Source: Periplaneta americana (lineage: Eukaryota > Arthropoda > Insecta > Blattodea > Blattidae). From it: a DNA stretch of 64,000 nt. This document shows, piece after piece, positions 34,400 through 64,000 of the stretch. A program made the position numbers and the translations under genes. Under the pieces are notes generated by a model. The model had not been told where the DNA came from and made no database searches. It saw only the letters and a program-made list of their open reading frames with translations. Numbering within the stretch: position 1 is the stretch's first letter; each line of letters begins with the position of its first letter. The stretch is from NCBI RefSeq assembly GCF_040183065.1, contig NW_027185502.1:943501-1007500 (forward strand). The letters run 5' to 3'.

Positions 34400-34486
<87 letters not shown>

Positions 34487-38591: not shown

Positions 38592-38599
38592 GTAAACTG

Positions 38600-39412: not shown

Positions 39413-39513
39413 ACATTTCTAATCTATAATTTAATAACTTTGCTTTATAATATGAATAAATGATTTTCGCTTTTTATAAATTCTTAATAGACTTAGTATA
39501 ATATTATTCTAGC

Positions 39514-42725: not shown

Positions 42726-42827
42726 CAAATTTATTTATTTTTCCTTTGATGGAAGTCAAGTCGCACTTAAAAGAATTTTTCTGCCTAAAGCTCTATGGCC
42801 CTCAACTGATATTTAATAAATGTACAG

Positions 42828-43060: not shown

Positions 43061-43439
43061 GTTTTTGAGAGAGACAAACTATACATAATGGCTCCTTTTT
43101 CTTTTACGATTATTTTAGTAATTAACATCAGGTTCATTAATATATTATGCCATGACTTTATCATTATGATATTGTGGCTGCAAATGGAAAGAAAAAAGAT
43201 TTTATTCTCAATAAAAATATCTTTCGTGGCATAAACATAACAAATTTACTGGTGTCGGCCTTAAAACATTCAAACAATTAAGCGTTCAAAAAACAAAACA
43301 AAAAGCCACAATTCAATATTTAGTCTATCTTCCTCTTATCTCGATCATCTTGCAGTCGAGTGGGCATGGAATTGACTAGTCTATGCAAATAGCGACTGTT
43401 TTTAGACACGATATTCCAGGCATTCTGAACATACATACA

Positions 43440-43890
43440 TAAGTGTTCTGTCCATGGGCAGGTCTTTCATTGCAAACCCAGCAATCTCCAATCTTTCCTA
43501 TTTTCTGCCTTCCTCTTGGTCTCCGCATATGATCCACATATCCTAATGTCGTCTATTATTCTTTTCAACCAGAGACCCAACCAGTTACTTTTTATCTTTC
43601 TAATCAGTTTCAGCATCATTCTTTCTTCACTCACTTTTTCAAACACAATTTTATTTCTTATTCTATCTGTCCACTTCACATGTACCGTTCTTCTCCACAT
43701 CCGCATTTCAAATGCTTCAATTCGTTTCTCTTCATTTCGTCGTAATGTCCATGTTCCTTCCCCATACAATGCCACACTCCACACAAAGCACTTCACTAGT
43801 CTCTTCCTTAGTTCTTTTTCCAGAGGTCCGCAGAAGATGCTTCTTCTTCTATTTAAAGCTTCCTTTGTTCATGTTTGCAGTTTTTCTTGG
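43440..43890 (-). mobile_element. LINE fragment, RT C-terminus (KWTDRIRN family), internally deleted
   Basis: Minus frame 43796-43467 reads MKCFVWSVALYGEGTWTLRR, EAFEMRMWRRTVHVKWTDRI and ETKRKAENRKDWRLLGLQ. Compared with 50640-51042 it lacks the RRYQMTDD-preceding block, an in-frame-like deletion. LINE 3' end lies near 43440. Confidence 0.85.
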
Positions 43891-44199
43891 GAAGGATAGG
43901 CCTAAATGCGGTAACATCCCGTTGCTTTCCGCACACCACTATCTCTTTCGCATCTTATTAACTTCCAGGGGACCCAAGCGTGGAGATGAGGAGAGTGGAT
44001 TTGACTAATTGGGCCCTCCGGACTTCACCGAAAGTCACGGCAAGGGTTAAATATTAATTCTATCAGGATGTTTGACCCTATCAGAGATCGGGAAATCTCA
44101 ATTAGCCTTTGCCCCCCGCATCCTGGACTAGCTTCTACGAATCATCAGAAAATCTTAGAGTGTGATTGGGCCAATTTTTCCGAAAATGTTTCCACACTT

Positions 44200-44300
44200 T
44201 TGCCCTCGTAGCTCAGCGGACGAACATCGGAATTTAGATGTCAACATCTCAGGTTCAATTCCTCGTTACTCCTTTTCATTTTATTGTGGTTCAAGATAGT
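44200..44300 (+). mobile_element. tRNA-like SINE fragment
   Basis: CTCGTAGCTCAGCGGACGAA is A-box-like and CAGGTTCAATTCCTCG is B-box-like, followed by a T-rich tail. The acceptor stem does not pair well, so not a tRNA gene. Confidence 0.55.
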
Positions 44301-44379
44301 ATAATGTAATAATACAAAAAGAAAAACTAATAGCAGTATTATGCAACTGGATTTTTCCAAACCTAATATTAAATTTATG

Positions 44380-45475
44380 TTATTTATATCGCTAAAGAAC
44401 GATTACAATATAAATAACTTGAATATTATTTATACAGTATCACTAAAGAGCGATAACACAATATAAATGATAAATATCGGTTTGTTTAATTAATATAAGA
44501 TATTATATAATACGTGTTTAATTATCTAAATAAAGTAACCTATTTTACAAAGAAAGATGTTTGTGTTATAATAATTACCTACATAAAATACAGATTATTT
44601 ATATTGCGAAAGGACAATAACAATATAAATAACTTGAATATTATTTTATAATGCTAATGAAGGAAAACAGAATATAGGGTAAATAACTTGAATATTGTTT
44701 ATATCGCTAAAGAATGATAACAATATAAAAAACGTGAATATTATTCATATCGGAATTTCACAGATTTATTACAGATGTATTTAAGAAATTGTAGAAGAAT
44801 AGTAATTAGTAACAGTGTCCTATTTATTCTTCTTGGAGCCAAATTTGTAACTTTTAAAAGTGTGGTTACTATGTTGAAGTGTATGTGTTGCAACGGATGC
44901 TTGATTTGTTATGTATGTGAGTCAGTTATGGGATGCTTGATGTCGTCGCAATGTCGTAATTATAGTTTGATTGTGTTTGTGTGACTATTGTGTATTAATT
45001 TATGATGTATGGTATGGAAAGCTGCATATTTGTGTTATAGAAGTGTTACGTATGTGTGTTGTTAATGTTTTTGTATGTTTCAAATTGATAACTGATATTT
45101 GTTTTGCAATCGCAATGCCTAATTTACAGATTGTTTATGTTTTGTTTACATCGCGTAAGCTAATTTAATTTTCTTTTCCATTTCTCTTTATGCTTATCTG
45201 TTTTGTGTATAAAACTATAGCCCTAACATACATATGTAAAATAGGGCTAACCCCCACTGGAGATACAATAATAATAATTATTATTATTATTAATATTCAC
45301 ATCGTTATAAAACGATAACAGAATACAAATGATGACTTGAATTTTATTCATATCCCTAAAGAACGATAACAAAATATAAATAACGTGATATCCATCAAGA
45401 ACGATAACTGGATATAAATGATAATTTGAATATCATTTACATCGCTAAAGAACGATTAAAAAATAAAATGAAAAC
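44380..45475. repeat. Diverged satellite-like tandem repeats, interrupted
   Basis: Units of about 70 bases containing ATATCGCTAAAGAACGATAA and CAATATAAATAACTTGAATA recur at 44385-44500, 44600-44760 and 45295-45470 with substitutions and indels. About 530 bases of other sequence (44765-45292) interrupt them. Confidence 0.75.
44765..45292 (+). mobile_element. Insertion with LINE-like 3' end in the satellite
   Basis: The segment ends GGGCTAACCCCCACTGGAGA TACAATAATAATAATTATTA, the type of 3' UTR plus (AAT)n tail found on non-LTR elements. No RT frame; short ORFs are cysteine-rich shadows. Identity is inferred only from the tail and position. Confidence 0.45.
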
Positions 45476-45477
45476 TT

Positions 45478-45692
45478 GAAGAAGGCGCGAACCCACAACC
45501 TTTGAATCATTAAACAAGCACTCTACCGCTGGTCTGCGAGGAGCAGATATGGAACACTTCCATAGTTCCGGAACTGCTTGTACAAGCACATGCATCGTGT
45601 AACATTGCCGCGACCCAAAGTAGACTTTGAAAATATTCGCTGTTCACGAGTGTGGCCACTTTTTTTTTTGACAGCTGTACCTTGGATTATGT
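45478..45692 (-). mobile_element. SINE family D copy 2
   Basis: Minus strand begins TACAGCTGTCAAAAAAAAAA GTGGCCACACTCG and later AGACCAGCGGTAGAGTGCTT with GGTTGTGGGTTCGCGCCTTC, A- and B-box-like. It ends in an AT-rich tail entering the satellite. Confidence 0.65.
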
Positions 45693-46351
45693 GCAAATCC
45701 AGTGAGCACTCTATCACCAGAGTCAATTATTTGTTAATGAAAATATTTATACTTAAAAGACTCTATTAGTCAATGGAGAACTACAATAAATGACTAAATT
45801 TACAATACTAACATCAACAATAAGCTGTGCTATCTAAAATAAAGCAATCAAACATATGATAAAAGCACCCCACAACAAAAGAAAATGAAATGTGTCATGC
45901 AAAAGAGGCTTACAAGAAAAGGATTACAAATATGATTTCAATTAAGATAAAATAACTGAAAAATCTAAATAACAACAACTTACAGCCAGCAACAGCAATG
46001 AACTGATGGAGTCATAACAGTTCTTGTCAATTAATTAATAATTCTGTGCCTCAAAGGCAAAATGTGATGTAAGGCAAAATGTGATGCAGGTATCATTTCT
46101 TGCAGTTCTTCAGGAGCGAGCATTTAAAGTTTGAACAACTGCATGAAATCATTGTAATCGTGTTTCATAACAAAGAGTTACAAAGAAAAATAATAGATAT
46201 ATGCATACCATCTTCTGTCACAATAAAGTTATCGTCAGGATGCACAACATATCGTAAAATATCATTTTCGTCAAAAATTAACATATTTGCCTTGGAACCA
46301 CAGAATTGTGGGTGTGGGCATAATAAAAGCAAACTTGTTGTAATGTTTTAC

Positions 46352-46498
46352 CTGTTTTAAACCAGGAGGAATTTTCAATCTATTTGCTGCCTTATCCATG
46401 TCATTATCCATAAGATTGTTCACATCAATTTGCAAGACATCCCAAGCAAAATGCAGCTTCTCTTGCAAGGTGGTGCCACAGAGATCTTCCACTACGCT
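46352..46498 (-). CDS. POLR1A: POLR1A exon, pre-lid helices
   Basis: A 49-codon phase-0 exon. Two AG sites overlap at the acceptor; the outer one (46499-46500) keeps the frame and gives SVVEDLCGTTLQEKLHFAWD at the start, while the other would shift it. It ends RLKIPPGLKQ before gtaaaa, matching the MDK...PGIRQ region of the human protein, and should join directly to an exon starting with ILEKKEG-type sequence. Confidence 0.9.
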
Positions 46499-46665
46499 CT
46501 GATCAAGTATTGAGTCAAATCAAACAGAATATCAGTAAAAAAAAAAAAAAAAAACACAATTACATTCGATAAAATGTACTGTATATCTGAAGAAGTGCAA
46601 TATAAAAATACGAAAAATGATCCATTTTGAATCTTGCGTATACTACTTTTAACACCTGCATATAA

Positions 46666-46785
46666 GTAATTGATTAACTAGTGGAACTTACTCATGTAAG
46701 ATGGTGTGATGATACACTGAAACAGCTGTAAGCCGCACAGACTTCCATAATTAACACGAGTAAGTTCCACTAGTTAATCAATTAC
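46666..46785. mobile_element. 120-bp foldback MITE, perfect 28-bp arms
   Basis: GTAATTGATTAACTAGTGGA ACTTACTC at 46666-46693 is exactly inverted at 46758-46785, with a 64-bp loop. No frame, no clear target duplicate. It lies 170 bases upstream of a POLR1A acceptor, in the 636-bp intron. Confidence 0.85.
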
Positions 46786-47134
46786 GAAAAATGAATTTTA
46801 AAGTGTGATATAGAGAAAATCAGATTCAGAAGAACTCTGCCTAACAGAATGCGAAGTGAATATTCAGCTACCAAGTGGCTTCTATGTTGGAATTGTTTGT
46901 GATCAGTCAATGCCATGTGGATAAACTCAATGGTACATGACTCCAAAAAAATTTTATAAAAAAACTTGACACATAACAAACGTGGCGGTGGGGGTGGTGC
47001 TGGGAGCAGACAGGGTAGTAAAATAAGAAGGAAACAGCAGGAATAGAAAAAGGAATTGAGTGAAGGAGGAAGGAGGCAGGGAAAAAAAAAGAGAAAAACA
47101 GTAGCAAAACAAAAGGAGAAAAAAGAGCTTTTAC

Positions 47135-47275
47135 CTGTCCTTCTCCTGTTAAGTTTTCTGTGTTGCCATCTCGCACTGCCTTCATCACATGTTGGACAAT
47201 TATGGAATCTTGAAGAATGGCTTTAAGCGTCTTACTTTGTGGATGTTCTATTATCTTATCGTTAATAAAATTCAC
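47135..47275 (-). CDS. POLR1A: POLR1A exon, segment after the RP turn
   Basis: A 47-codon phase-0 exon with a gtccag acceptor and gtaaaa donor. It reads VNFINDKIIEHPQSKTLKAI and ends NLTGEGQ. It aligns with the family stretch of helices between the MRP/YRPVS turn and the segment leading into the clamp coil. Only 636 bases of intron separate it from the next exon. Confidence 0.87.
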
Positions 47276-47894
47276 CTGGACACAAAATTGGATTTCAGCA
47301 ATATTTTGTTTAAATGTCTCTCTACCATTGCTGGAAAAAGGCTTTTTAATACATATTACAGCAGCTAATATAATTTCTTTCAAAAAACGAACATAAAATA
47401 ATAACCTGAGATTTTCTGAACACTGTTTTGTGCAGCCTTACGTTAATTAGACATCGTGTGTTTAGAGGCTGAAACAGGTTTCACTTAAAAATGTCAAATG
47501 AGGAGGAAAAAAAAAAGCATTACAATTTTACAACCTTCTACAGCACACAATATTAGTGCCAGCGAATTTTAAAGCTATTAATAACTAGTTAATTTTTATT
47601 TCCATAGGTTGAATTTTATTGTAGGAGGAACATGCTGAAAGTAACAAGTAAGAACCTTTTATTTTTGAAGCAGCAAATACAACAGAATCGGTAACCTGTA
47701 GAAAATTAAATAAATTATTTTTTATTTAAAACAGATTTGATTATTAAAAATGTTCTGGCACTTTTCTAATGAAGTTAACATATGCATTAGGTAGTACATA
47801 TCCCTATATTTCTAAATGTGCTATTTTAAATACTAACAACGTTCATTGTTTTTTATCATTCACTTTAACACTTGAATAAAACAGTGTCAGGACA

Positions 47895-47934
47895 CTGATG
47901 ATGACACCACACCGGTGTTGAAATGGGGCCTGTC
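47895..47934 (+). other. Hammerhead-like hairpin, possibly Penelope-related
   Basis: CTGATGATGACACCACACCG then GTGTTGAAATG. ACACC pairs with GGTGT between CTGATGA and GAAA. As at 11008 there is an extra T before the stem, so catalysis is unproven. Confidence 0.35.
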
Positions 47935-48189
47935 TGTCATAGGTACATTACCTTTTAAAAAATTTGTAACAGTTTTAACGTTTTAACTCTAGAAAGTTTC
48001 ATAGACTAATAACATTGCTTAAAATATGTCTTCATTATGTTGATATACAATTAAAGGTAAAGGAAAAGTTACAGCAATAATAAACTATCCTCAATACATT
48101 AATACTTGTATCACATTATTAACTTAGCTCTGAGCAAGATATTATCTAAAGTTAAATTGTTATTCTATAAAAAAAATTAAACTATTTAG

Positions 48190-48199
48190 ATTATTATTA

Positions 48200-48242
<43 letters not shown>

Positions 48243-48270
48243 TACTACTACTATTATTATTACTACTATT
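48190..48270. repeat. (ATT)n/(ACT)n microsatellite
   Basis: About 25 trinucleotide units with ACT variants towards the right. Confidence 0.9.
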
Positions 48271-48407
48271 GCAAAAAAATTAATCAATCTAAAGAGCTTA
48301 TCACATTGTGTATAACATTTCCTTAGAAATACCAATCTGAATGCTTTTTCTGTCCTTAATTTAGGCCTAGTTTAAGTTTTGAGTGCACTATTCAAAATGC
48401 CGTAAAA

Positions 48408-49090
48408 TTCTTTACGCTCGACCATGCCGAAATGTAGTAATTATACACCTGGTAGCAGCCCTTTAATGGACCTCATTAAAGTACACCTATTCATTAAAGT
48501 TCAGGTGTTCCACCAATCAAAAAACACCATTGTAGCAATATGAAAGTGCAAGTATCGATTATTCTCGGATATGCAATCGAAAGACAACTAGTGAAACATC
48601 ACGGAGGCTGGAAATCCAATACTGTCGCAGAAGGTTATGTTCTGTTACTATAATAATTAGCGTTAATCGTAAATAATATTCAAATAAATTCAATTTGTCA
48701 TCTCGTTTTTCAATGTCCAAATCAATTTCAAGGTTATATCAAGATTAATATTCATTTTACTCTCTAGATTATACCAAGGTCAATGACATTTGTTCCTCGG
48801 AAAAAATCAATACTTTCACGTCTGCGCACATCTCACAATTTACGAGATATTGCACAAGGTCAGTTCTGCTCCCCAGTCAGATAAGAATAACATGAATACT
48901 TATGAATAATTTCAAGTTAGAAATATGGTCGAGTATAAAAAGTCGTACGAAACTTGCTTATAATGGTAATTAAGACGCTCGTTTCATAAACATACTCGCG
49001 TCTTAATTACTACCATTATAGGCGCGTTGCATAGTGTACTATTCCACACTGTTGATGCAATGATTGTTACTAAATAAAATTGAAAAACTA
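48408..49090 (+). mobile_element. Foldback-type element, family F copy 1
   Basis: TTTACGCTCGACCATGCCGA AATG at 48411 and GAAATATGGTCGAGTATAAA at 48925 are inverted borders. A second hairpin follows (TATAATGGTAATTAAGACGC inverted at about 48995). The sequence is the reverse of 55015-55700, about 600 bp shared, e.g. TTGTCATCTCGTTTTTCAAT. Right outer arm missing. Confidence 0.75.
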
Positions 49091-49362
49091 CATATTTTTC
49101 AGATTGTTCTCTCACATTGGTGAATATAGTGAAAAATAAGTTCCACCACTCATAAACACTCAATGCTATGTGGCTCCTTGAAAAGTAGTAGGTTGGCTTG
49201 AAAGTTTAAAATCAAATTGAAAATTTGAGAGCCAAAATTACCTTACACTAATTCCTGTCCTTGGTTTTTTTCCTGTAAGGTATAATTTACTGGATTCTTT
49301 GCTATCAACAGGGAGGAACTTATCGGTATTAAGCAAGCAGCCAAATGGACATCAACTATAGT

Positions 49363-49872
<510 letters not shown>

Positions 49873-50299
49873 GTTATAGCTGAGTCATCCTAGAATTATA
49901 TTTCCTCACAACTTCAGAATAACTGAGTGTTCCCAATTTATCAACAAGTGTTTTCCAAATAAGTACACAAAGTAAAAAAAGGCAATTGATGACCATGAAC
50001 AATTTACGCCAAAAATGGAAAAATAGGGAATATAACACTTATAGCCGATTTCATCAAGCTTTACTATGTTTTTAGTGATTCATTAATTTATTTATTGGTT
50101 CATTAAATTATTTTTATAGCTCACCAAGCATCTTTAGCCCTAAAGAACCAGTAAAGCTATCGCATCAGTTTAGTGATAGAAATTGTATGTATGTATGTAT
50201 GTATCCAATGCCTACCCACTTCACTTTACGTGATTCGGGTTCTGCATAAGTACACAAAGTAAAAAGGCAATTGATGATTTTATCAGCATCTTTGGTTAT

Positions 50300-50505
50300 T
50301 TAGCATCTGAATGAGATGAAGATGATAATGCCGATGAAATGAGCCCAGGGTCCATCACAGAAAGTTACCCAGCATTTGCTCATATTGGGTTGAGGGAAAA
50401 CCCCGGAAAAAACCTCAACCAGGTAACTTGCCCCGACTTGGAATCGAACCCGGGCCACCTGGTTTTGCGGCCAAACACGCTAACCGTTACTCCACAGGTG
50501 TGGAC
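50300..50505 (-). mobile_element. tRNA-derived SINE (family A), minus copy
   Basis: Minus strand: GGAGTAACGGTTAGCGTGTT TGGCCGC, CCCGGGTTCGATTCCAAGTC, CAAGTTACCTGGTTGAGG and GGGGTTTTCCCTCAACCCAA. It is better preserved than the plus copy at 8762. A 30-bp direct repeat AAGTACACAAAGTAAAAA at 49960 and 50248 lies nearby. Confidence 0.82.
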
Positions 50506-50639
50506 ATGAAGATCATGGTATCGGTACTCAAAATTTTAGAAGAAACTGATCATAGGTTAGAATATCATCAGAATGACTGAGACAAAGCTGAAACTAGTCA
50601 ATTAGGTAACATACAATTTAATTTTTATTTCAACACATG

Positions 50640-51042
50640 AAAGTGGTTATTATAACTACGTCATTCATTTAGTGTTCTGTGCAAGGGCAGGTCTTTCACT
50701 GCAAACCCAGCTTTCTCCAATCTTTCCTATTTTCTGCATTCCTCTTTGTAAATTCATATGATCCATATAGTTTAATGTCGTCTGTCATCTGATATCTTCT
50801 TCTGCCCAGAACTATTCTCCCATTCACCATTCCTCCCAGTGCATCCTTCAGTAGGCTGTTTTTTCTCAGCCAATGACCCAACCAATTCCTTTTCCTCTTC
50901 CTGATCAGTTTCAGCATCATTCTTTCTCCACCCACTCTTTCCCACACAGCTTCATTTCTTATTCTGTCTGTCCACTTCACATGTTCCATTCTTTTCCATA
51001 TCCCCATTTCAAATGCGTCTAGTCGCTTCTCTTCACTTCGTC
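50640..51042 (-). mobile_element. LINE fragment, RT C-terminus (KWTDRIRN family)
   Basis: Minus frame 51007-50696: MGIWKRMEHVKWTDRIRNEA, ERMMLKLIRKRKRNWLGHWL, RRRYQMTDDIKLYGSYEFTK and NRKDWRKLGLQ. One open frame, 5' truncated at 51042. Confidence 0.87.
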
Positions 51043-51835
51043 GTAATAAATATTAGTAAATTAATACACAATGTACATTCAAACATAACAAAACTTAATT
51101 GGTATAGTAACTTCCATTTATTAGAATTAAATTTACGCACACAGGTTCTTGACCCTACTATCCGTTTCGAAAGGAACCTAAATCAGGCCACCGAAGTTGA
51201 TATTGAGAAGAAGTCTATATATGAACCTTGTCTGCCTTATCTTTCTCAAAAGTACAACGTCCCTCTTAAACAATGGTCTGTCATTGGTTTGCTCTTTGGC
51301 AGTAGAGGTTCTATTACAAAATTCACATGGAATTATCTTAAGGAACTTCACATTCCTTTTGATTATTAATGTCTATTCTTATAAATATTATCAAGGATTC
51401 TCTTCAAATATTACATCATCATCTCTATTTCAATTAATCCACTTATATATTTCCCTTCAACAATTAACTTTCTTTTTTCTTAATGTTTCAAATCACATTA
51501 TGTTGTGCACGTTTATTGTATTCAGGATCCTTATGGTCACTCAAATTCTTTGAGCTGATTTCTCCAATGAATATATAAAATAAATACAGCATATTATGTA
51601 GGCATTAAGTTTCTACTTTCTTTTTCTACTTTCTTTCAGCTTTGCAACTGTACTTCATACTACAATAAATGCATGAGTCTCTAATTTTTTTTCATTTTGG
51701 ACAATAGATTTCAAGAATATTATCTATACCTAATTGAGTTCATATAGTATGTATCATTCCTCCCTCAAATGATGCGACCACTGGAATCAGGAATGCAACA
51801 ATTACAACAGCTATAACAACAGCAGCAGGAGTATT
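51043..51835. other. Intronic sequence, nothing recognised
   Basis: A 118-codon plus frame (51013-51369) shows no domain and begins within the neighbouring LINE sequence, so it is not called. Confidence 0.3.
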
Positions 51836-51976
51836 AATAATAATAATAATAATAATGATGATAATAATTATAATAATAATAATGATAATATAATAATAAT
51901 AATTATAATAATGATAATAGTGATAATGATGATAATGATAATAATGATAATATTAATAACAATAATAAAAACAAAG

Positions 51977-52028
<52 letters not shown>

Positions 52029-52125
52029 TAATCATAATAATAATAATAACAATCATAATAATAATAACAATAATAACAACAATAATAAAAATAAAAATAA
52101 TAATTATTATTATTTATTTACTAAT
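51836..52125. repeat. Long (AAT)n microsatellite with GAT/AAC variants
   Basis: About 290 bases of AAT, GAT and AAC units; the isoleucine-rich frames on both strands are artefacts. It forms the tail of the LINE on its right. Confidence 0.92.
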
Positions 52126-53145
52126 ATTTAATGTGCTGTACAACAGCCAGGGGCCAATAACAGTTCAGCACATGATAATATCACTACAAGAACATTAATA
52201 ATGACAGAAATTACGACAAAAGTACATAGGAATAATTATTAAAATAATGACAATTTAAAATATGACAACTGAAAATAAAAGATGGAATCTTATATATGAA
52301 TATATATTTTTTTTATCCAATGCCACCAGGTTGTCTTTTCGACATTTCTGGTCTTCTCTCCTGGCCGTGGCTTAGTTGTAACCCACTTCTGAGGTTGGGG
52401 CACCTGGAAGGCGGAGTTACATTGCCCCGATGATGTGATAGGATGATTATGATAATGTGGTGCCAGGAGAGGTCTTAAATCTAAACTTAACCTAAATTCC
52501 AGACCATGGACGAACACAGGAATAATCCCCTTTAAGGAAAAATTCCTGTGCTCTAACCGGGAATCGAACCCGGGACCTCATGAACTATAGCAAGAAGCTC
52601 TGACCACTAGACTATGAGGCTGGTCATATATGAATATAATACGAATGATAAGAAATATAACGAGAATAATACCCATAATACAATACATATCAAATAAAAG
52701 ACATAAATTAATAACAACTGCCATAAAACTCCAAAAGTATATGCTACACATGAAATGGATCCAAGTTTAATCCATGCAAATTAGCATATTTTATACAACT
52801 GCTGACCAGAGAGAGAGATTTAGAATTTCTATTGCAAAAAATTTTAGCAGGAATATGAAGACTGATATTGCTGAAGAAGGATTCAAATCAATACCATCCT
52901 TAATGATTTTACAAAAAAATAAATAATCAAGATCTTGATGTCTGACAAACTATAGCAATTACAATATTTGCAGTTAATCTCATATTTATAATCACTGGAA
53001 CTGGGTACAAATCTATAAGAACACAAAGAAATAAATTTTCTTTGGATATTCTCCAATTTATCCGAGTCAGTAGAAGTAATGGAGTTCCATATTACAGATG
53101 CATATTCAAGCTTGGATCTAACCAATATGTACTATAAAATTAATA
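52126..53145 (-). mobile_element. LINE 3' part, split by a SINE
   Basis: Minus frame 53125-52883 encodes MVRSKLEYASVIWNSITSTD and KLENIQRKFISLCSYRF, an RT thumb/C-terminal block. Its 3' UTR runs to 52126 (GGCCCCTGGCTGTTGTACAG CAC...) and ends in the AAT tract. The SINE at 52305-52625 splits it. Confidence 0.78.
52305..52625 (-). mobile_element. tRNA-derived SINE family E with 13-bp TSD
   Basis: Flanked by ATATATGAATATA (52292-52304, 52626-52638). Minus strand: CCTCATAGTCTAGTGGTCAG AGC (A box), GGTCCCGGGTTCGATTCCCG (B box), a 230-bp body and an A-rich tail. Nested in the LINE. Confidence 0.88.
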
Positions 53146-53192
53146 CACACATAGCAGCAGAAAAAAAAATAAGTTATGAATCCAATTAGATC

Positions 53193-53244
<52 letters not shown>
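53193..53244. repeat. (AAT)n microsatellite
   Basis: About 17 AAT units. Confidence 0.9.
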
Positions 53245-53247
<3 letters not shown>

Positions 53248-53362
53248 TTTTCTCCATATTCTATATTTTATAACTGTGTTGCTTCATTGTTGGCTCATAT
53301 GCAAATGATATAGCAGGTAACAATTTTCAACATAGTAGGTTGTGGTTTCATGAAAATGTTGT

Positions 53363-54551
53363 TGTTTTCTAATGCCAGGCGTTTGACAATAAAGTCATTT
53401 GATCTCTTGCACTCCAATATTTTTCAAAGATATTATCATGGCCAGCCACTGAACCACAGATTTTGAGGTGTTCCGAATCCATTTCTTGGTTTGAGTTGCA
53501 CAATGGGCAGTTAGGGGACTGATATATTCCAATTCTATGCAGGTGTTTGGCCAAACAGTCATGGCCTGCTGACAATCTAAATGCAGCTACAGACGATTTT
53601 CGTGGTAAATCGGGAATTAACTGTGGATTATGATGCAGAGAGTTCCATTTTTTCCCTTGAGATTGTGTTATCAAATTTGTTTGTTGAAGTCTAGGTATGT
53701 AGATTTAATAAATCTTTTCACATAGTAATACGTAGATTTAGTAACAGGTCTGTAAGTAGCAGTGCTGCCCTTCTTTGCTAAAGCATCCGCATTCTCGTTT
53801 CCCAGGATTCCACAATGGGATGGTATCCATTGGAATACAATTCTTTTATTCAGTGATATAAATTGAGAGAGCATTTTAGTTATTTCTGCTGTTTGAGATG
53901 AAGGTGTGTGTCTAGAGACTATTGATAGAATACCTGCTTTGGAGTCTGACAATATACCTGCATTCTTAAATTTATTGATGTGGCATAGAAGATTCCTGAG
54001 ACTTTCACTGTTTGCAATGTTTTCTCCATCAAAACTTGTTGTTCCATATCCAAGAGATCTATAAAGTGAGAAGAGACAGCACGTAACACCTGCACCGGCA
54101 CCTTGTTCTCTGGAGATCAAGGATCTGTCAGTGTATAAATGAAGCCAGTTTTGTGGAGGGTACCTAATATTAATTGTCTCTAAAGACAATTGTTTCATTA
54201 TTTCAGTGTTTACTTCTGATTTCAGTATTTCTTCTGTTAAATTTAGATTATAGTCTAAAATAGTCCCCCAATCGGATCTCCGGGCGGGGACTACTCTAAT
54301 GGTACAGAATCAACTAAACATCTTACAATGGAATGCTGACGCCATAACATCAGCTAAGAAGACTGAACTAGCCAATATACTCTCAGATATTAATGTAGAT
54401 ATCTTCCTTATTCAAGAAGCAAACCTTAATGCTGACCAATTAAAATATTTTGATTTTAAAGGTTTTAGTATGAAACTGTTGCCCAAAAGTAGACAGATCA
54501 GTAGTGGAATTCTCGCAGGCATATCAAAGAAATTAATTACAAATTTTCAAA
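53363..54551 (-). mobile_element. RNase H LINE insertion with 5' inversion (twin priming)
   Basis: Flanked by TCATGAAAATGTTGT at 53348-53362 and 54552-54566. The main part (minus) encodes MKQLSLETINIRYPPQNWLH, FQWIPSHCGILGNENADALA and, after a frameshift near 53670, the C-terminal AAFRLSAGHDCLAKHLHRIG. The part from about 54265 up is in plus orientation and encodes the start of an APE-type endonuclease: MVQNQLNILQWNADAITSAK then DIFLIQEANLNADQL. One target duplication around both parts means one integration event. Confidence 0.93.
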
Positions 54552-54969
54552 TCATGAAAATGTTGTGATATTTGTACTTATGAAATATTCACTGAACCCA
54601 CTTATTTATTTGTAATGAAGCATTACTTACTATTCATTAAATGTTAAATAAATCTGGTTGGTGAACAGCTCGCATTTTAGTGAATTGTTTATATTTTAAT
54701 TTTCACTAGTTAATATTTCATTTGGATTGATTTATTGAAGCTTCGTGAAATGGGGCATTAGGGTACTTAATATTTAAATAATGCATACATATTAGATTTT
54801 CAAAACGTCAGTTCATATAAAACAGGCACTTGCCTGAACATCCAATGTCTACTGCTAAAACATAAGCAATTTTCACACTGATTGGCAGCAAACAATCCAC
54901 TTTCTTTGTGCGTGCGTCCATACTAGGATATAAATCTAATAATTGTTAAGAAATTAAAACATGTGACAG

Positions 54970-55850
54970 TGCAAAGCATAATTTTTCAGGAGGAAGGAAA
55001 TACTACATTATGCAACGAGCCTATAATGATAGTAATTAAGAATCGAGTATGGATATTTATGAAACGAGCGCAAGCGAGTTTCATAATTTTCATACGAGCT
55101 TCTTAATTACCATTATAGGCGAGTTTCATATGACTTTTTATGCTCGACCATATTTCTAACTTGAAATTACCGGTATTCAGATGTATACATTTTATTTGTA
55201 TCTGACAAGATCGGAAGTGACCTTGTTCTAGGTCGTGAATTGTGAGATGTGCGCAGACGCGAAAGTATTGATTTTTTCCGAGAAACAATAATGTCATTGA
55301 CCTTGACGTAGTCCCGTTTAACTTGATAATATTATAATATTATAACCTTGATTATTGAATTCGACATTGAAAAACGAGATGACAAATTGAATTTATTTGA
55401 ATATTATTTACAATTAACGCTAATTATTATAGTAACAGAACATAACCTTGTGCGACAGTATTGGATATCCAGCCTCCATGACTTTTCGCTAATTCTCTTT
55501 CGATTGCATATCCGAGAATAATCGATAATTGCTGTTTTATAACGGTACAAAGCTGACTTGTCATTGGCTGAACACATGTAAGCTGAGTTATCATTGGCTG
55601 AAGACCTGTACTTTAATGAGTAGGTGTACTTTAATGACATGCATTAAAGGACTGCTACCAGGTGTATAATTAGTACATTTCCACATGGTCGAGCATAAAA
55701 GTAATTAAATATCAATAGCCCTACGCTGATCCTCGATGCAGTCATCGTATTCACCAATGTTTTCTACCGAATTATATAATATTCTTCTGTAGACCTATTG
55801 ATATTTAATTACTTTTTCCTTCCTCCTGAAAAGATTATGCTCTGTACAGT
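54970..55850. mobile_element. Foldback-type element, family F copy 2 (about 880 bp)
   Basis: Outer ends AGCATAATTTTTCAGGAGGA and, reversed, AGCATAATCTTTTCAGGAGG. Inside each end is a further hairpin (TATAATGATAGTAATTAAG inverted at 55110; AAGTAATTAAATATCAATAG inverted at 55798), and then TTTTATGCTCGACCAT borders. The core equals the reverse of 48408-49015. No transposase. Confidence 0.82.
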
Positions 55851-56004
55851 GGATACAGGTAGTTACATAAAATTAAGAACGATATAATACAGTATTCAAA
55901 CAGCAAATGACTTCCAAGAGCAGCTTACTGTTAGAAGGTGCTATCAGTTTTTATGAAAGAGGTTAAGTAAAATTCTTCTGACACAAGTACAATTCTTTAC
56001 TTAC

Positions 56005-56146
56005 TGGTCTCATTTTGGGTGGTGGAACAGGAATAACTGTGAGGAACAAGGCATCAGTTGGATACTGTGTATCACAGTATTCCAATACTGGCAACAGAGC
56101 ACACATGAAATTCTTCTCATTCTGCCACAGCTTGCGCAAATGTGTT
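56005..56146 (-). CDS. POLR1A: POLR1A exon, clamp head region
   Basis: The exon follows a ttttag acceptor and ends before gtaagt in phase 0. It encodes THLRKLWQNEKNFMCALLP and continues to PVPPPKMRP. The helix ending LWQNE and the VPPPKMRP turn correspond to the human segment ending VVPPSRYRPVS, a conserved landmark of Rpb1-type subunits just before the lid and rudder region. Confidence 0.9.
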
Positions 56147-57584
56147 CTAAAATGAAACAATCACCATTTACATAAAAATTAATTAATTCTTGAATATATT
56201 CCAACCCTGACCAACTCAAGAGGTTTACTCAGGGAGGGGCACGAGGAATGGCAAAATTTTCCCATAAAAAAAATAATCCTAGAAAATTACAAAATACAGT
56301 AAAAATATTAAAGTTTCTCGTTCCTGAAAACTGTAGAATTTATTATAGGAAGCAATAATCACTACACTATTCATACAGTCAATTATGTTCTAATCTGTAT
56401 GCTAGTTATATTCAAGTGTTCATAAGTTTTTCTGCATGCTTACTTTGCATTGTAAAACCGAACCAAATCACTATCTCAAATGGACAGTAGAACATTTTAA
56501 ATGTACCAGGCAAATATAAATCTTCAGTTCTTCACCATCATTATTTGACACAGTTTACTTTCTAATTATACGGAGTACAGTGAGCAAAAAATCGATTTCG
56601 AGATTTTATTTGATCTCTTTTCCAGCATCTGAGATACCGAAAAATTAATTCTGGATATGTCATCTATCTGTCTGTGTGCAATCATTTTTTCTGAATTTGA
56701 GGACAAACTTTGTCCATATTCTGTACACATGAGTAGGCTTATCCAAAAATGATGCATATGAAATACAATAATTTTCAATAAAAATTTGTTTAAAATCAAC
56801 AATATAAGTTCTACAGACCAGATTTCTGGTTTGGTCGTTTGTGCATTGATAACTTATTTACACTACAAGAAAAAGAAAAAAGAACCGATTTGTAAAGATA
56901 CTTATTGTGCATTTATTGACCTTGCATGCAATGTTCCCAAATCGAGATATGATTTGTCTTGGAAAAATAGCCCATAGCACGTTCATGAAAATGAAGGAAA
57001 TATGGGATAATGCAGAACATATTATTCTGCATTCTTTGGTAATTCATTTCGGGAGCACATCTCCCTGCTCTGCTGTGTTCATTCTCGAAGGAAGTAAGGC
57101 CTAATAATGGTAGATGATGTTAAACCACACCAAACTGTAACTTCTACAAAATGAAAGAGAACCTTCTGCACTTCACGAAGATTTCCTTTTCTAACGAAAA
57201 TCCTGCCTGTTGACAAGTCCAAAAAAATGAAAGTGTGTTTTATCAGACAATCCTGTTTTACTGAGTATGTCTGATTAGTCTGGTTTAACCCTACAGAACT
57301 CCGTGCAACTCCTTAAACTGCACTCTGCTAGTCAAAGTGATAATGCATGTCGTGCACAGATTACACTTTGTGTATTTTCAGACGTTGTTATGTTCCTCCA
57401 ATGAGAAACACAACACTTGTCTCATACTGAGTGTGTTAAATGCCATTTTCTGACCCAATGTAGCATGGTATTGCGATCAGGAGCTTACTGTATCGAAATA
57501 TAAGCTTCAAGCACGTGTCTGTAGCCCTTCCTAGTGGCTACAGAACATAGAGCCTCTTTATGGCATCTAAAACGCGACATTAAT
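56147..57584. other. Intronic sequence, nothing recognised
   Basis: No domain or repeat end supported; short frames only. Confidence 0.35.
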
Positions 57585-57935
57585 TGCAGTAAAACCTCGT
57601 TAATCTGAACTTCGCTTAATCCAGATAGGCAAAAAACAGATAAGTTTGAAAAAATTGAAGAATCTTGTTTTAAAACTTACTTTTATACATTAGAACTGTG
57701 GAACTACAATAATGTACTACATTGTATGTATTGCTTTACATTTTGCTGTATTGTATAGTGTATTTAGCCCTAAACCCTTTAAATACACTATAATAAACAT
57801 GTTTTTTGCTATAAACGGAGTTTTAATACACTTTCTACTGTTCTTTTAGGTTATTTCAGTTAATCTGGACCTTCGTTAAATCTGTCAACTTGCCCCACCC
57901 CACCAATTAGTCCGGATTAACGAGGTTTTACTGCA
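57585..57935. mobile_element. Pogo/Tigger-like MITE (351 bp)
   Basis: TGCAGTAAAACCTCGTTAAT and its inverse bound the element. CAGT-AACCTCG-TTAATC-G ends resemble pogo/Tigger-type termini. No DDE frame. The expected TA duplication is not clear. Confidence 0.75.
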
Positions 57936-58690
57936 GTTCCCTGTCTGAAAACACACCTGTTGGTAAACTTGCTGGTTTTTTAAACACGAAACATTATATT
58001 TCAAGTAGTTTGAAAACTAATTAAGACTGTCAAGAAAGAATGTGATTTGTAAATGGGGTCGATCACAGACTGTTGCAATGAGACATGATAACATAACAAA
58101 GAGGTTGTGTAAGGTGCATCATCACTCAAAACACTAACCCAAACAGAGTAATGGAAATGGTGGCCAATCAATCAGTTTCTGTTACTGTATTATAATGCTG
58201 TATCAGTGATGTGCTGTGTTGTTGCTGGGAATTCAGGCCTAAAATGTCATAAGGTCAACAGGGGATACCCGTTCATAATTTAATACATTCTTGTAAAAAT
58301 TCTACATGCATTCTATGCTTTATGTTAAGTTATTAGCTTAAAATAATTTCTATTATGTCATGTGTCAGTCAGTGTAAATACATGCCTCATTTTCCAGCAC
58401 AAACATAGAACCAATCAGAAGTTGGGGAGCTGGAAGATTTTGTGGTATGTTTGTTGATATGCAGAGTCTTTTTGTACAGAATGAGGATTATGTTAAATTT
58501 CTTTAATACAGTTATTCTGCATAAAGAACTCGACACAAACTTCTAAATTGTCAAACATTTTGAAACTGACTAAGCAGCCATCCCTTTTGACCTTGCAAAC
58601 TGATGAAAGCAAGAAAATCTAAAATTACTGAAATTACGGTAATTTCAAATGTATCACAACTGTCCGTAGTATCCTATAATATTATATCAT

Positions 58691-58942
58691 CGCCTGAATG
58701 CAAGAACTAGGTAACTTGATTTTTCATATTTTGTGACATTGCCTATTTACTTATTTATTGCACTAAGGAATATGTCTCGTTTTCTTTTACCTATTTGTTA
58801 CATTGGAAAATAGATGTCGCTGGTATCGTTCAATCAGTTACCTAGGTCCTGGATTACATTTTGTGCGATTTTTGCTATGCTATAAAAGAGGTAACTAAAA
58901 ACCGCAAATTTCGAGTTACCTAGTTCTTGCATTCAAGCGGCG
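58691..58942. mobile_element. MITE with GAATGCAAGAACTAGGTAAC ends
   Basis: CGCCTGAATGCAAGAACTAG GTAACTT at the left is inverted at the right with a three-base insertion near the tip. 252 bp; no frame. Confidence 0.8.
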
Positions 58943-59095
58943 ATATGAAAGTACAGCCACAAAAATAATGATTCGAACATTTTAAAAACATAAAAATTCA
59001 GCACCATCATAGGATATATTACTCTGTTTAAGATTTGGGAGGGAAAAAAACAAAGTGATAACAGAAGAAAATTAAATCTTATAATTTATGTATAC
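58943..59095. other. Short intronic stretch
   Basis: Nothing recognised before the 69-bp POLR1A exon. Confidence 0.4.
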
Positions 59096-59164
59096 CTTGA
59101 TTCATCTGGTAGAATTACAGTTGTAACGAACTTCCCCCTATTTATTCCACTAGATGCTTGGTTC
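59096..59164 (-). CDS. POLR1A: POLR1A exon, 69 bp
   Basis: This small exon lies between a tttcag acceptor and a gtatac donor. Its first base completes the arginine codon split by the previous exon, then it reads NQASSGINRGKFVTTVILPDES. It falls where the family has a weakly conserved stretch before the SAREHL-type helix, so identity rests mainly on phase, splice sites and the next exon continuing in frame. Confidence 0.75.
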
Positions 59165-59710
59165 CTGAAACAAAAACACCATCATATAATCTAAGAGGAA
59201 TCAAAATTTATTTTTCTGGATGAAAAGTAAAAACGTTATTGATATCACACGATCAAAACATATAAGGATGTTTACATTAGATTGAAAGGATTATAACAAC
59301 CCAAAAATATCACTAATCATTCTCATCAATATCTTAATCCCTGAACCAGGGAACTTACAGAGAAAGTAAATACGAGAAACCACTGACACAAGAAGTCAGG
59401 CTGTGTACCCAAGGAAAAGTTCAACTGTATCATTAGTCACACGAGAAACACAATTACCTGCTTGAATGTACAAAAAGATGCTCTTACCTACCTATAACTA
59501 CTCAATTAGTATAACAATACAATCAAAATTTTCAGTACCAGCTAGCCTTTAAAATGAACTTGTAACAGAAGCTGCATGGAATATAGAAACTAACCAGCAA
59601 CTGTAACAGAAAGACAGTTGACTACACATTCAGATACTCTAAATTTTCTTCATCAATGATTATTAGCTCCGAAAAAAAATCATTTGACAGAAGACACACA
59701 TAAAAACAAG

Positions 59711-60641
59711 CCACTAGATGGCTTTTAGAGAACCCAGAGGTTCCATGGACAAATATATAATAGGATGCGAAACTGTGGTCAGCACCATCTGGCAATGGGG
59801 GGCTGAAATAAGATGATCAGCGACCAACGTCGTAGGTGGTGAACATTAGAACTATGTGTTGGGTACATTACCCAGAGTTCTCTATTTATCCATTCGAGAT
59901 ATTGCTCGAGGAGACAAGATGGCAGACAGAAACTTGCTAATAAGTGAACATAAAGTGATACGTGTGTGTATAAGCAGTGCATGTTAAACAGTGATGTTTA
60001 TGGACATTGTAAAAATAGTGCTGTTGAATGTATTGTAAAGTAATAGTAATATATAAATTGAACTATCTAAGTAGTTCTCGCAGACTTTTCCATTGTGCTG
60101 TACAATAAATACCCAAAGAATACAATCCCAATTATCTAACCTTTTGCTTTATTTTTTTGTTTGTGTCTGGTTATATTTTAATTGGGTAGTGTAAAATAGA
60201 TAGTCTCTTTTATCTTCCTATTGGCTCCGGTAAGAATTTTCAGTAGAAGATGCTGTGAGGAATAAAAATGTAAATGTTTTATTTTAAATTGGGTTAGTTT
60301 CGAATATCGATGAGGGTGGGAGGGAATACTTTCTGCACAGTTTAACATTTTCGTCACCAGGTGCACTGCTAAATGCATGGAGTAATTAGTTACTCTTTTC
60401 GCTACTTGGTGCGCTGCTAGATGTAATAACGCCCCTCCCTCTAACAGGTGGCAGCAAGATCATTTTCTACAACAGCACCTCTAGTATGTGTTACGGGAAA
60501 CGCTGTAAGTTTCGCATCCTATTATATATTCATCCATGGAGGTTCATTGCCACCCTCATATAAGCCTGCCATCAGTCCCTATCCTGAGCAAGATTAATCC
60601 AGTCCCAATCATATCTCACATCCCTCAAATCCATTTTAATA
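59711..60641 (-). mobile_element. LINE 3' fragment (28186 family) split by a TIR element
   Basis: ATGGCTTTTAGAGAACCCAG AGG (59718-59743) and GGTTCATTGCCACCCTCATA (60541 on) are adjacent in the intact copy at 28215-28260. The remainder to 60641 matches 28230-28333 (CTATCCTGAGCAAGATTAAT CC). The element at 59744-60538 separates them. Confidence 0.82.
59744..60538. mobile_element. Non-autonomous TIR element (795 bp), 7-bp TSD
   Basis: Ends CATGGACAAATATATAATAG GATGCGAAACT and an inverse copy with two mismatches. GAGGTTC flanks both sides (59737-59743, 60539-60545), and the intact LINE at 28186 shows the pre-insertion sequence. No transposase frame. Confidence 0.87.
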
Positions 60642-60811
60642 CAGTGCAATCGAAAAGTCCCTCCGCAGCTCTGTTAATTCTAGTAACCCTGTAGACAATT
60701 GGCATTCCCCCACTCATTCCAGTTCGACAGCCTCACCCCCCAGTCCATCGTGTGCTGCATGATAGCACCACGGGCTACACAGCATTGCAGAGAGACTTCT
60801 CGACTGCACTG
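60642..60811. mobile_element. Short MITE, CAGTGCAATCGAAAAGTCCC ends
   Basis: The left end and the reversed right end (CAGTGCAGTCGAGAAGTCTC) match over about 25 bases. 170 bp; a TA at the left only. Confidence 0.72.
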
Positions 60812-61477
60812 TGTTATCCCACTAGATGTAATGAATAACAATGTTACAAAATACACTCGACAAAACGGTAACAGACAACAGAAATATTTATCCCATAACA
60901 CTACTAATTTAACCACAAAGAAAAGCCATACTACAAATATAAACTTGACCACTAGAAAACATATACAGTAAGTCAAATTACATTGGGTCTGAGAAATAAA
61001 AACGGACAAAAAGAAATTCATGTGAACTGTCCGAATACAACACAGGAAAAGACAGGATGCTGTAACTGCTATAGCAGTGCCAGTTAAAAGAAACTTGCAA
61101 TCAACATAAACTTGTCAAACCAACAAATTCAAGCAAATGTGAAAACAGATATAGTAAATATTTATCTACTCTAATGAAAATTTCAATTCTAAATACTCTT
61201 CTCTAGCATTAGAAATTTCAAAACTGCTATCTATTAAATTAAATGCCTTGTCAATGAAGTGTAGAATATTCATTCTTAATGAAAATTTATCCATGATGTG
61301 TAGTTACGTCACAATTAAGGAGAAAGATCATGATGATGATTATGATTAATAATAAGACAAAAGAAAGGAAGGAAAAGATGAGGAGGAGGGAGAGAAATAA
61401 GACGAGTGGAAAAGAAAACGATGAGGGATACTCCAACAAATAAATTGAAATTGCAGTAAAATCTGATTTTAACATTC
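60812..61477. other. Intronic sequence, nothing recognised
   Basis: AT-rich; no element ends or domain seen. Confidence 0.35.
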
Positions 61478-61555
61478 TTTGAAAAATATTGGAGTGCAAG
61501 AGGTCAAATGACTTTATTATCAAACGCCTGGCATTTGAAAACAGCAACAACAACA
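61478..61555 (+). mobile_element. RNase H LINE 3'-terminal fragment (78 bp)
   Basis: TTTGAAAAATATTGGAGTGC, AAGAGGTCAAATGACTTTAT and ACGCCTGGCATTTGAAAACA equal the last codons and tail of the family at 20281 and 53363, ending in CAACAACAACA. Possible short flanking repeat ACATTC. Confidence 0.8.
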
Positions 61556-61882
61556 TTCCAGTTTTCAAAGAATAATCTGGTAAGTTCCAGTCAAATTACC
61601 ATAAAAATAAAGTAATAATGTAATTGATTCTCCTTTTAAGAAAACCCGATTTAAGGGAAATCCTGCTTTTCGGGAATATTTTTCAAGTGGATTTTATGAA
61701 AACGAAGCACAAAATATCGACCTGACTTTCAATAATCAATAGTACCAGCTTAGCTAGTCTCAATTTATGGCAATGCAGTGCCATGTGGCAGCATTATTCT
61801 TTATCATTGCTTACGGTCTTGCTTTGTGTTGCTTTCACAGAGTGGTTGCTTTGCTTGCTTTGTTCTCGCGAGTTGTGTGGAT

Positions 61883-62105
61883 GTTATGTTTTTGTTTAAC
61901 GACGCTCGCAACTGCAGAGGTTATATCAGCGTCGCCGGATGTGCCGGAATTTTGTCCCGCAGGAGTTCTTTTACATGCCAGTAAATCTACTGACATGAGC
62001 CTGCCGCATTTAAGCACACTTAAATGCCATCGACCTGACCCAGGATCGAACCCGCAACCTTGGGCATAGAAGGCCAGCGCTATACCAACTCGCCAACCAG
62101 GTCGA
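61883..62105 (-). mobile_element. tRNA-derived SINE family G with 14-bp TSD
   Basis: Flanked by CGAGTTGTGTGGAT (61869-61882, 62106-62119). Minus strand: GTCGACCTGGTTGGCGAGTT GGTATAGCGC (A box), GGTTGCGGGTTCGATCCTGG (B box), a body with ACATCCGGCGACGCTGATAT, and a 3' end GTCGTTAAACAAAAACATAA. The short frames across it are artefacts. Confidence 0.9.
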
Positions 62106-62119
62106 CGAGTTGTGTGGAT

Positions 62120-62625
62120 CCTGTTTCCAAGTTCTTCTGTTAGTTTATGCATCATTATAATGACAACTAACTGGAAGAAATTAACTATCGGACAGAAAGT
62201 GAAAATAATAAGGGATGTCGAGGACAATCCTCAAATAACACTATAGCATATGGAAAAAGGCATGGTTTCCCGATTACTTCATTATGGGGAACAATGAAGA
62301 AGAAGAAGAAGAAGAAGAAAAAAGACATTTTTCAATGCTTATTTTCAGTATGGTTCAGGTTCAACCAAGTGAAAAAACATTTGTGCCTACCACTTGAAGA
62401 GTTACAAAAATATAATAATGAAGTGTACTGTAAATAAAATTGTAGGCCTAATTAAATGATTATAATGTTTGGCACACAACACACATGTCAGTACTAGTTA
62501 TTTTAGCCTTTCCTTTCCATTTTATGTAAGTCCCTTTTAACAAAAACTCCTACTTAAGGACAAGATTCGTTAAAAAGGGGTTGCTTGCTTTCAAACTGTA
62601 TTAGTAATTATAAATCCATTCTTAC
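62120..62625. other. Intronic sequence with a short (GAA)n
   Basis: A (GAA)n stretch at 62296-62320 and nothing else recognised. Confidence 0.4.
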
Positions 62626-62804
62626 CTTTCTGTTTCTGTCGAAGCTTTCTGGACTTTGATCATCAACTTGTTTCGGTACATTGAGATTTTCTTCATAGGC
62701 GCCTTACAATTTGGGCAAGCCTTCAATTCATTTACAGACTTCTCTACTGCATTAACAAGATCATTTATTATGAACTCCACAAACTTTGTACGTGAACGTG
62801 GTTT
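62626..62804 (-). CDS. POLR1A: POLR1A exon (first in window), clamp zinc-site region
   Basis: The exon begins after a tttag acceptor in phase 0 and ends ...ACAGAAAG before gtaaga, leaving two bases. It encodes about 59 residues starting KPRSRTKFVEF and containing KACPNCKAP. The CPNC pair matches the second half of the zinc-binding clamp-core region of the Pol I largest subunit. The remaining joins are given with the next exon down. Confidence 0.88.
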
Positions 62805-63397
62805 CTAAACATTTTTTTCTGAAAATGAATAAGCTACCTTTATGAGACATACATATACTCATACATAAAGGTAAAAAAACATGCCTGATGTTCATGGATA
62901 TGATTTCACTGCATCAAAATTCAACATTGTTATTTCAAAGAAAGGAAGAAAGGGTTAGAAAAGAAAAAATAAGAGGAAATAAATATAGAAAAAAAGAAAG
63001 AGAGAGAGAGATTAATCACAATTCTTCAGATTATTACAAAACAACTAGTTCATTTTGACAATTTATTCAAGCATTGCTCCTCCTCTGGTGTTATGGTTTC
63101 AAGATTGACCCCAAGTTAATTTTTATCATCCTTATCTCTCAGTCGGCCACTTCACAAGGATATTGAAAGCACAGATAGAATTTGTTTCAGAGGTCAATAT
63201 TTCGATGCTTTAACACTGTTACTGTTATTACTCACAATCATGAATTTTGATACTTTATTTGAACGTATTAGTTAAAGAAGTGTAGAAATATAAATGCATG
63301 CACTGTAACATACATAACGCACACCATTTATTCTCTTGTGCTCAGTTCAAATTCAGAACAGATGTGAAATATTACATCAATATATAAAATACCATTG
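62805..63397. other. Intronic sequence upstream of the first visible exon
   Basis: No POLR1A N-terminal exon or other feature is recognisable here or in 63622-64000. Confidence 0.45.
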
Positions 63398-63621
63398 CTG
63401 CACCTCCAAAATCCACTATATACATTTAAACAGATTTTTCAGGAGAGAGAAAAAATAAACATGATCACTTTTAATCACCTTGATTTTCAAAGCTACTTTC
63501 GGTACGGTACAGTTTCATCATTTTTCATGTAATGATTGAATGTAGCTTTGAAATTCAAGGGAACTGAAATTGACAATGTTTTTCTTTCTCTTGAAAAATA
63601 TAGTGAGTTTTGGAGGCACAG
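63398..63621. mobile_element. Foldback element, imperfect arms of about 100 bp
   Basis: CACCTCCAAAATCCACTATA at the left mirrors TATAGTGAGTTTTGGAGG at the right; TTTTTCAGGAGAGAGAAAAA mirrors TTTTTCTTTCTCTTGAAAAA; and CTTGATTTTCAAAGCTAC mirrors GTAGCTTTGAAATTCAAG. The loop is about 40 bases. A MITE-type foldback is likely. Confidence 0.75.
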
Positions 63622-64000
63622 AGACGATATGCATTCTCTGCTCCAACTCCATATTTCTCTAACTCAACCAACAGTATCTTCTACGACTTTCTCTTCAAAC
63701 AAGAAGTAACATCTCAAGCAAGCACAATTCAAAAACAAATTTTCATATCTTTGCTTTATGCGAACTAAAACTTTAAAATTCACTTAAGAAACACAGAATA
63801 AAAATATTTCGAATCAAAGTTTTAACAATTTCAACTATACAATAATATAGTTGTTTATTTATACAATAAATTAAAAATTGAAATAAGTTACTTTAACATA
63901 ACAAATTTTTCGATAACACACGATTTGATACAATTTATTTAACACCTAGAATCACAACTGTACTTTGCTTACCGTCACTGTGCCTTACACACTACTGTGC

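Follow-up and report, generated by a model that had tools for sequence, protein, structure and literature searches.

The insertion and its target site duplication

A LINE insertion made up of two pieces in opposite orientation lies in the 64,000-nucleotide stretch of Periplaneta americana DNA analysed here (the window, C21:943501-1007500), and its features are listed in Table 1 together with two further copies of the same family and the duplicated segment that contains it. Between the two copies of the target site duplication (TSD), the minus strand encodes an RNase H domain (PF00075, E 6e-10) that is followed by a weak zf-RVT match under the Pfam cut-off (E 0.0011). The start of an endonuclease (EN) domain on the plus strand is weak when taken alone (PF03372, E 0.0016, 18.6 bits versus a cut-off of 24.5). 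The inverted 5' piece contains the 43 nt that immediately precede ORF2 and then 84 codons from the start of the endonuclease, with the ATG at 54299, and its polarity places element position 633 at the inner junction and position 928 at the TSD. The final 9 positions of its match to L065, a longer ordinary copy of the family, fall inside the TSD.

Table 1. Coordinates of the LINE insertion, of related copies and of the repeated segment in the window.
Feature	Position	Strand	Evidence and remarks
Left TSD copy TCATGAAAATGTTGT	53348..53362	+	Exact match; last six bases TGTTGT able to pair with the ACA repeats at the 3' end of the LINE RNA
LINE 3' piece: RNase H, zinc-like motif, 3' end	53363..54257	sense on -	Element positions ~3462-4360; Pfam; 95% to L065 4265-5163
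Inversion junction, TA compatible with both native sides	54256..54257		L045-L064 (EN side), L066-L080 (RNase H side), L065 alignment
Inverted 5' piece	54256..54551	+	Element positions 633-928; 95% to L065 1436-1740
Right TSD copy TCATGAAAATGTTGT	54552..54566	+	Exact match; first four bases TCAT also native LINE sequence at the priming site
Ordinary same-family copy, RT thumb to RNase H to 3' end	20257..21755	+	92-96% to L065 3756-5172
Simple 5'-truncated same-family copy	19502..19993	-	16-bp TSD ATATTAAAACAATATG
Part of the window repeated along with the insertion elsewhere	30400..63913		Covered by a probe at 30.4-30.9 kb and by flank comparison from 49.1 to 58.7 kb and, in three loci, to 62.6-63.9 kb

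The 15-mer TCATGAAAATGTTGT is present in the window as two exact copies, and the sole other match within 2 mismatches has 2 mismatches; a repeat search of the window gives the same pair. In a rough control with simple repeats kept in, 200,000 pairs of 35-nt segments were drawn at random ~1.2 kb apart in the window, and 48 of them had an exact repeat of 15 nt or longer in common. One TSD surrounds both opposite-strand pieces, and two paralogous empty sites carry the 15-mer once. The original prediction, which had described a LINE insertion bounded by one 15-bp TSD with the RNase H/3' part on the minus strand and the endonuclease/5' part on the plus strand, agrees with the exact TSD copies at both outer sides, with the Pfam matches and with the L065 alignment.

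The LINE family and its native order

The P. americana genome searched comprises 3,231,669,367 bases in 91 contigs. A search with the EN piece gave 883 first-look candidates, of which the best 40 were scored; 12 of the 40 are loci with the window's insertion (window included), 20 ordinary copies (L045-L064) were examined and 8 others were left out. All 20 copies read natively across both ends of the inverted piece. Downstream of it the native copies have TTTTCAAATCATAAAA versus TTTTCAAATCATGAAAATGTTGT in the window, and upstream they run on into the leader, while native LINE copies read TCATAAAA at the position of the right TSD. One of the 20 (L060) features an internal deletion a little downstream. 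The sample for the RNase H side consisted of 15 loci (L066-L080) out of 25 matches, nine others being insertion loci and one being left out.

In L065, EN, reverse transcriptase (RT), RNase H and a zf-RVT-like motif are collinear in a single orientation, spread over three reading frames. The endonuclease matches PF14529 (1.2e-16) in the same endonuclease region as in the window piece, RNase H matches PF00075 (6e-13), and the larger of two RT pieces matches PF00078 (8.9e-22). The smaller RT piece is under the cut-off, one stop is found in the RT piece, and the zf-RVT match is sub-threshold. Because this ordinary copy from the same genome has a collinear EN-RT-RNase H order, the arrangement in the window is derived.

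Five longer copies (L081-L085) have a common sequence that starts ~640 nt upstream of 54264. No ATG-started ORF of more than 36 aa was found in these ~640 nt in the five copies, which are presumably of full length. The common start probably marks the 5' end of the element, and with this reading the element is therefore ~4.4 kb long and the window holds positions 633-928 and ~3462-4360, so that ~632 nt of 5' sequence and 2,533 nt (~2.5 kb) of internal sequence are absent from the window copy. The earlier placement of the element's 5' UTR at the internal junction thus applies to the final 43 nt before ORF2, which are the end of the leader, and not to the 5' end of the element, as ~640 nt more lie upstream. 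L1 elements have no RNase H domain and carry a poly(A) tail, whereas the cockroach LINE encodes RNase H and its 3' end runs into TGTTGT/ACA repeats. Pattern matches in IMG/VR numbered 5 for the RNase H piece and 16 for the EN piece, and none was confirmed as a relative.

The ordinary plus-strand copy in the window is interrupted by ~100 bp of foreign sequence near 20815-20914. An 87-bp repeat at 20813-20899, which interrupts this LINE copy, is 91% alike to 3327-3413 in the opposite orientation. For a further window copy at 61476-61549, the automatic TSD search found nothing beyond 7 nt.

Junctions of the insertion

At the outer junction, the TCAT with which the TSD starts is native LINE sequence, and it is followed by one mismatch and then by AAA. 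For the priming site of the window insertion, 29 of 4340 element positions show a terminal match run of at least 4, and 9 of 4340 show at least 10 matches out of 15. On the EN side of the inversion junction, native sequence starts with TAAAATAG in 19 of 20 copies, with one base different in L055, and on the RNase H side it extends up to TCTA. Both sides fit the TA at 54256-54257, and the junction therefore has a 2-nt overlap; this moves it from the position of about 54265 given previously. The T of the junction TA differs in two of the 15 RNase H-side copies (L077 and L080), and the overlap would be 1 nt if the source copy resembled these. The LINE tail is often preceded in the flank by ATG or ATGT, for example AATATG/TTGTTG (window 19502, 53357 and 61552; L031, L033 and L039), which suggests a preferred nick site.

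These junctions bear on whether the two pieces arose as independent insertions of two family members that point in opposite directions, adjacent or nested. The family is abundant, with 645 first-look candidates for its 3' end, but a single TSD encloses both pieces and occurs once at the empty sites. Additionally, the EN piece has no separate 3' end, and LINE overlaps LINE by 2 nt at the inner junction, where neither a second TSD nor a 3' tail is present. Two insertions are thus exceedingly improbable.

Duplication of the insertion-bearing segment

The 15-mer has 48 matches in the genome, which consist of 8 pairs ~1.2 kb apart (16 matches) and 32 single matches, all of them examined with their flanks. 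The window's insertion is carried by 8 of 8 pairs and by six of the 32 single matches (L021, L022, L030, L037, L039 and L040), in which the other TSD copy is altered. The inversion junction is common to all 14 loci, except for a substitution or a one-base deletion, and since the junction is the same in 14 of 14 these loci go back to one event. Divergence of the insert is 0-2.3% among the eight paired loci and up to 5.9% among the 14. The paralogous empty sites are L041 (a longer stretch of L007) and L028, where the flanks match and one 15-mer is found with no insert. The left-flank match of the empty sites is short (30 bp in L041 and 76 bp in L028), and the right flank of L028 holds ~700 bp of other sequence. 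The occurrence of TCATGAAAA beside the LINE tail in L003, L031 and L033 was considered as the same event and rejected, as these loci have different flanks and represent distinct insertions.

The other seven paired loci are 97-99% identical to the window from 52.6 to 58.7 kb. To the right, the three loci checked remain homologous as far as 62.6-63.9 kb, interrupted in places by gaps and insertions. To the left of 52.6 kb, where flanks were compared from 49.1 kb, the loci diverge more: most of them align piecewise with insertions, and 49.1-51.8 kb of the window is without a counterpart in the examined stretch of L013. A probe from 30.4-30.9 kb of the window was found at 16 or more loci at 91% or more (best 40 of 840 candidates scored), and 13 of the 14 insertion loci have it at a distance of 16-34 kb with side and strand as expected, with none at L039. 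From the shared flanks and this probe, it follows that the insertion rode on a duplicated segment over ~33 kb of the window. The window copy, which had been pictured as a stand-alone insertion, belongs to a set of at least 14 duplicates that descend from a single ancestral insertion, and it was a mere passenger when the segment was duplicated later. Among the near-identical copies on unplaced contigs, some might be haplotypes left unmerged.

The presence of an identical structure and TSD at 14 loci might also be read as a self-propagating family for which the inverted order is the native layout. The 14 loci, however, share flanking DNA as well as the TSD and are duplicates of one insertion: the eight long-flank loci agree at 97-99% over 52.6-58.7 kb, and the probe accompanies 13 of 14 at a distance of 16-34 kb. 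Among the loci examined, 20 for the EN side and 15 for the RNase H side, none had the inverted junction at an unrelated target with another TSD, which leaves a native inverted family with next to no credibility.

At three further places (C15:170541245, C28:848459 and C29:468609) the 30.4-30.9 kb part is present at 94% with no known insertion copy; these may be further empty sites or sites with altered TSDs. The insertion is also surrounded by inverted arms at 48411-49043 and 54999-55700, which are ~700 bp long and 77% alike, and related arms are found beside L041 and L028. Amplification as a transposon bounded by these arms was rejected, because the homology between loci extends past the right arm and because the 30.4-30.9 kb probe, from a position well outside the left arm, travels with the insertion.

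Inversions in other copies of the family

The best 40 of the 645 candidates for the 3' end were scored, seven of which are the window's insertion (window included) and were removed, leaving 33 surveyed copies (L086-L118). Three of the 33 are inverted (L093, L094 and L117), and their breakpoints differ from those of the window copy; 3/33 is a rough rate, because the sample consists of the best-matching 3' ends. L093 features an exact 15-bp TSD, a body at 2756-3721 with an internal deletion and an inverted piece at 2468-2701. Its priming site has a 4-nt terminal match and 8/15 matches overall, a level reached at 103 of 4340 positions, and its inversion junction has 5 extra nt. L117 consists of a body at 3592-3722 and an inverted leader at 320-618, with a TSD of 11 bp by script and 14 bp by eye. 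At its priming site 12 of 14 bases match, the best of 4342 positions, with a terminal run of 2 nt (238 of 4342 positions), and the inversion junction has 2 extra nt. L094 has a body at 2647-3728, an inverted leader from 99 onward and a 2-nt junction overlap; its far end is outside the examined stretch.

The other 30 surveyed copies comprise 4 same-strand leader-plus-tail composites, 5 short tails, 3 copies of more than 1.2 kb with no visible 5' end and 18 that are otherwise truncated or interrupted. The automatic search found no TSD for several of the 33 copies. The four composites (L091, L098, L102 and L108) have the leader (to 588-640) joined on the same strand to the last 110-140 nt (body from 3592-3616) with varying junctions, and are internally deleted derivatives that perhaps arose via template jumping.

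Several ordinary copies have near-identical ends, at body 2820-2827 (L068, L069, L075 and L076) and at 3611-3617 (L086, L087, L100 and L101), as if the reverse transcriptase had preferred stop sites. The first cDNA end of the window copy is at body 2822, near the four ordinary copies that end at 2820-2827 (15 loci, one search), and the first cDNA end of L117 is at 3592, near breaks at 3589-3595 in L091, L108 and L114. A tentative possibility, somewhat doubtful on these hints, is that this LINE undergoes twin priming regularly, in about one copy in ten, and that the process is triggered when the first-strand RT halts at preferred stops and frees the second target end to prime at another site on the RNA. 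The loci behind the RT-stop hints were chosen by single searches, and the sample may be biased.

Proposed mechanism

The window insertion very probably arose by twin priming in one retrotransposition event and was later duplicated with its segment. The original prediction of twin priming is well supported by the empty sites, the microhomology at the priming site and the single TSD. The event would be one retrotransposition of a LINE ~4.4 kb long that codes for EN, RT and RNase H. At a first nick, the strand end ...GAAAATGTTGT-3' would have paired with the ACA repeats in the tail of the RNA and served as primer for the first cDNA, whose synthesis would have stopped at ~3462. At a second nick 15 bp off, the end of the other strand, ...CATTTTCATGA-3', may have annealed within the RNA beside position 928 through 4 terminal base pairs, a mismatch and 3 more pairs, and the second cDNA would stop at 633. 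The cDNA ends would then have been joined via 2 nt (TA), giving the inverted 5' piece with ~2.5 kb absent between the pieces. Afterwards, the segment bearing the insertion was duplicated to at least 14 loci. The structure, the TSD, the empty sites, the native order, the microhomologies and the common junction and flanks are observed, whereas the nick order, the use of a single RNA template, the joining step and the way in which the segment was copied are inferred.

The polarity of the EN piece counts for twin priming, as its downstream end is at the TSD and its upstream end is at the internal junction, which is what the model predicts. Some features count against it. The ~2.5-kb gap and the ~632-nt loss at the 5' end go beyond what the model requires, and both cDNAs must have ended prematurely. 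Four matching nucleotides at the priming site are few, the priming-site match of L093 past its first four bases is equalled at many positions, and the terminal run in L117 is just 2 nt long. In addition, the junctions of L093 and L117 have extra nucleotides (5 and 2, respectively) instead of an overlap.

The gap is also a reason to consider twin priming with more than one template, in which the second target end was primed on another RNA or on an internally deleted RNA. Internally deleted copies do exist (L060 and the leader-plus-tail copies L091, L098, L102 and L108). One RNA is enough, however, and a deletion that connects 928 to 3462 was seen in none of the copies. The gap between the primed pieces of L093 is also small (body 2701 to 2756), so that a large gap is atypical of the inversions of this family, and a second or deleted template is unlikely. 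Even less probable is the inversion of an ordinary, internally deleted copy after integration, via recombination or repair. A later rearrangement is always conceivable, and the ~700-bp inverted arms flank the region, but they lie kilobases outside the insertion. One breakpoint is exactly at the TSD edge with microhomology between target and LINE, all 14 loci are inverted and none is forward, and other copies of the family were inverted independently.

Comparison with other LINEs

Twin priming is a known mechanism, found here in a kind of element with little found on record. R1 and R2 of Drosophila, which are arthropod LINEs as well, integrate through target-primed reverse transcription. In a paper on R1 and R2 in Drosophila (PMC2718515), the terms 'twin priming' and 'inversion' are found only in the title of a cited reference. 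Among the open-literature matches listed for twin priming, subscription papers being outside this scope, no title was on inversion in an insect LINE.

For human and chimpanzee L1, PMC2912911 gives 639 of 2068 insertions (~31%) as 5'-inverted, and ~70% of these feature 2-5 bp of microhomology at the 5' junction. According to PMC4245944, the TSDs of L1 inversions in human cells are mostly between 10 and 20 bp long and peak at around 15 bp; the only other inversion described there is one insert of zebrafish Nimb-2_DR in chicken DT40 cells. The window copy resembles the 5'-inverted L1 insertions of PMC2912911 in its inverted 5' piece, its one TSD around both pieces, its microhomology on the TSD side and its shorter microhomology at the inversion junction, and with its 15-bp TSD, 4 nt and 2 nt it fits the L1 inversion pattern. 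Inversion appears in 3 of 33 sampled copies of the cockroach LINE, unlike the ~31% given for L1 (PMC2912911). Nimb-2_DR is described in PMC4245944 as an I-group LINE with ORF1 upstream of ORF2, TSDs of 10-15 bp and one inverted insert; the cockroach LINE is classed here by its domains. The Nimb-2_DR case is a single cell-culture event of a vertebrate element, in contrast to natural insertions in an insect genome (PMC4245944).

Twin priming in this RNase H-bearing insect LINE is well supported. The natural insertions indicate that the process is not peculiar to mammalian L1, as it is seen more than once in an RNase H LINE with another 3' tail and with similar junction signatures. The genome has both inverted and simple copies of the family, and therefore the dependence of inversion on TSD length, target-RNA complementarity and RT stops can be asked. 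The window copy itself is an old insertion, multiplied afterwards when the surrounding DNA was duplicated.

Other features of the window

An ORF at 40167-40925 features TNP-like GTP-binding and RNase H domains (PF21788, 3.8e-37; PF21787, 1.9e-24). Such domains are found in P-element-like transposases. A short array of AACCTAACC-like units at 7969-8133 resembles the P. americana telomere repeat, which is reported as AACCTAACCT in PMC12774602.
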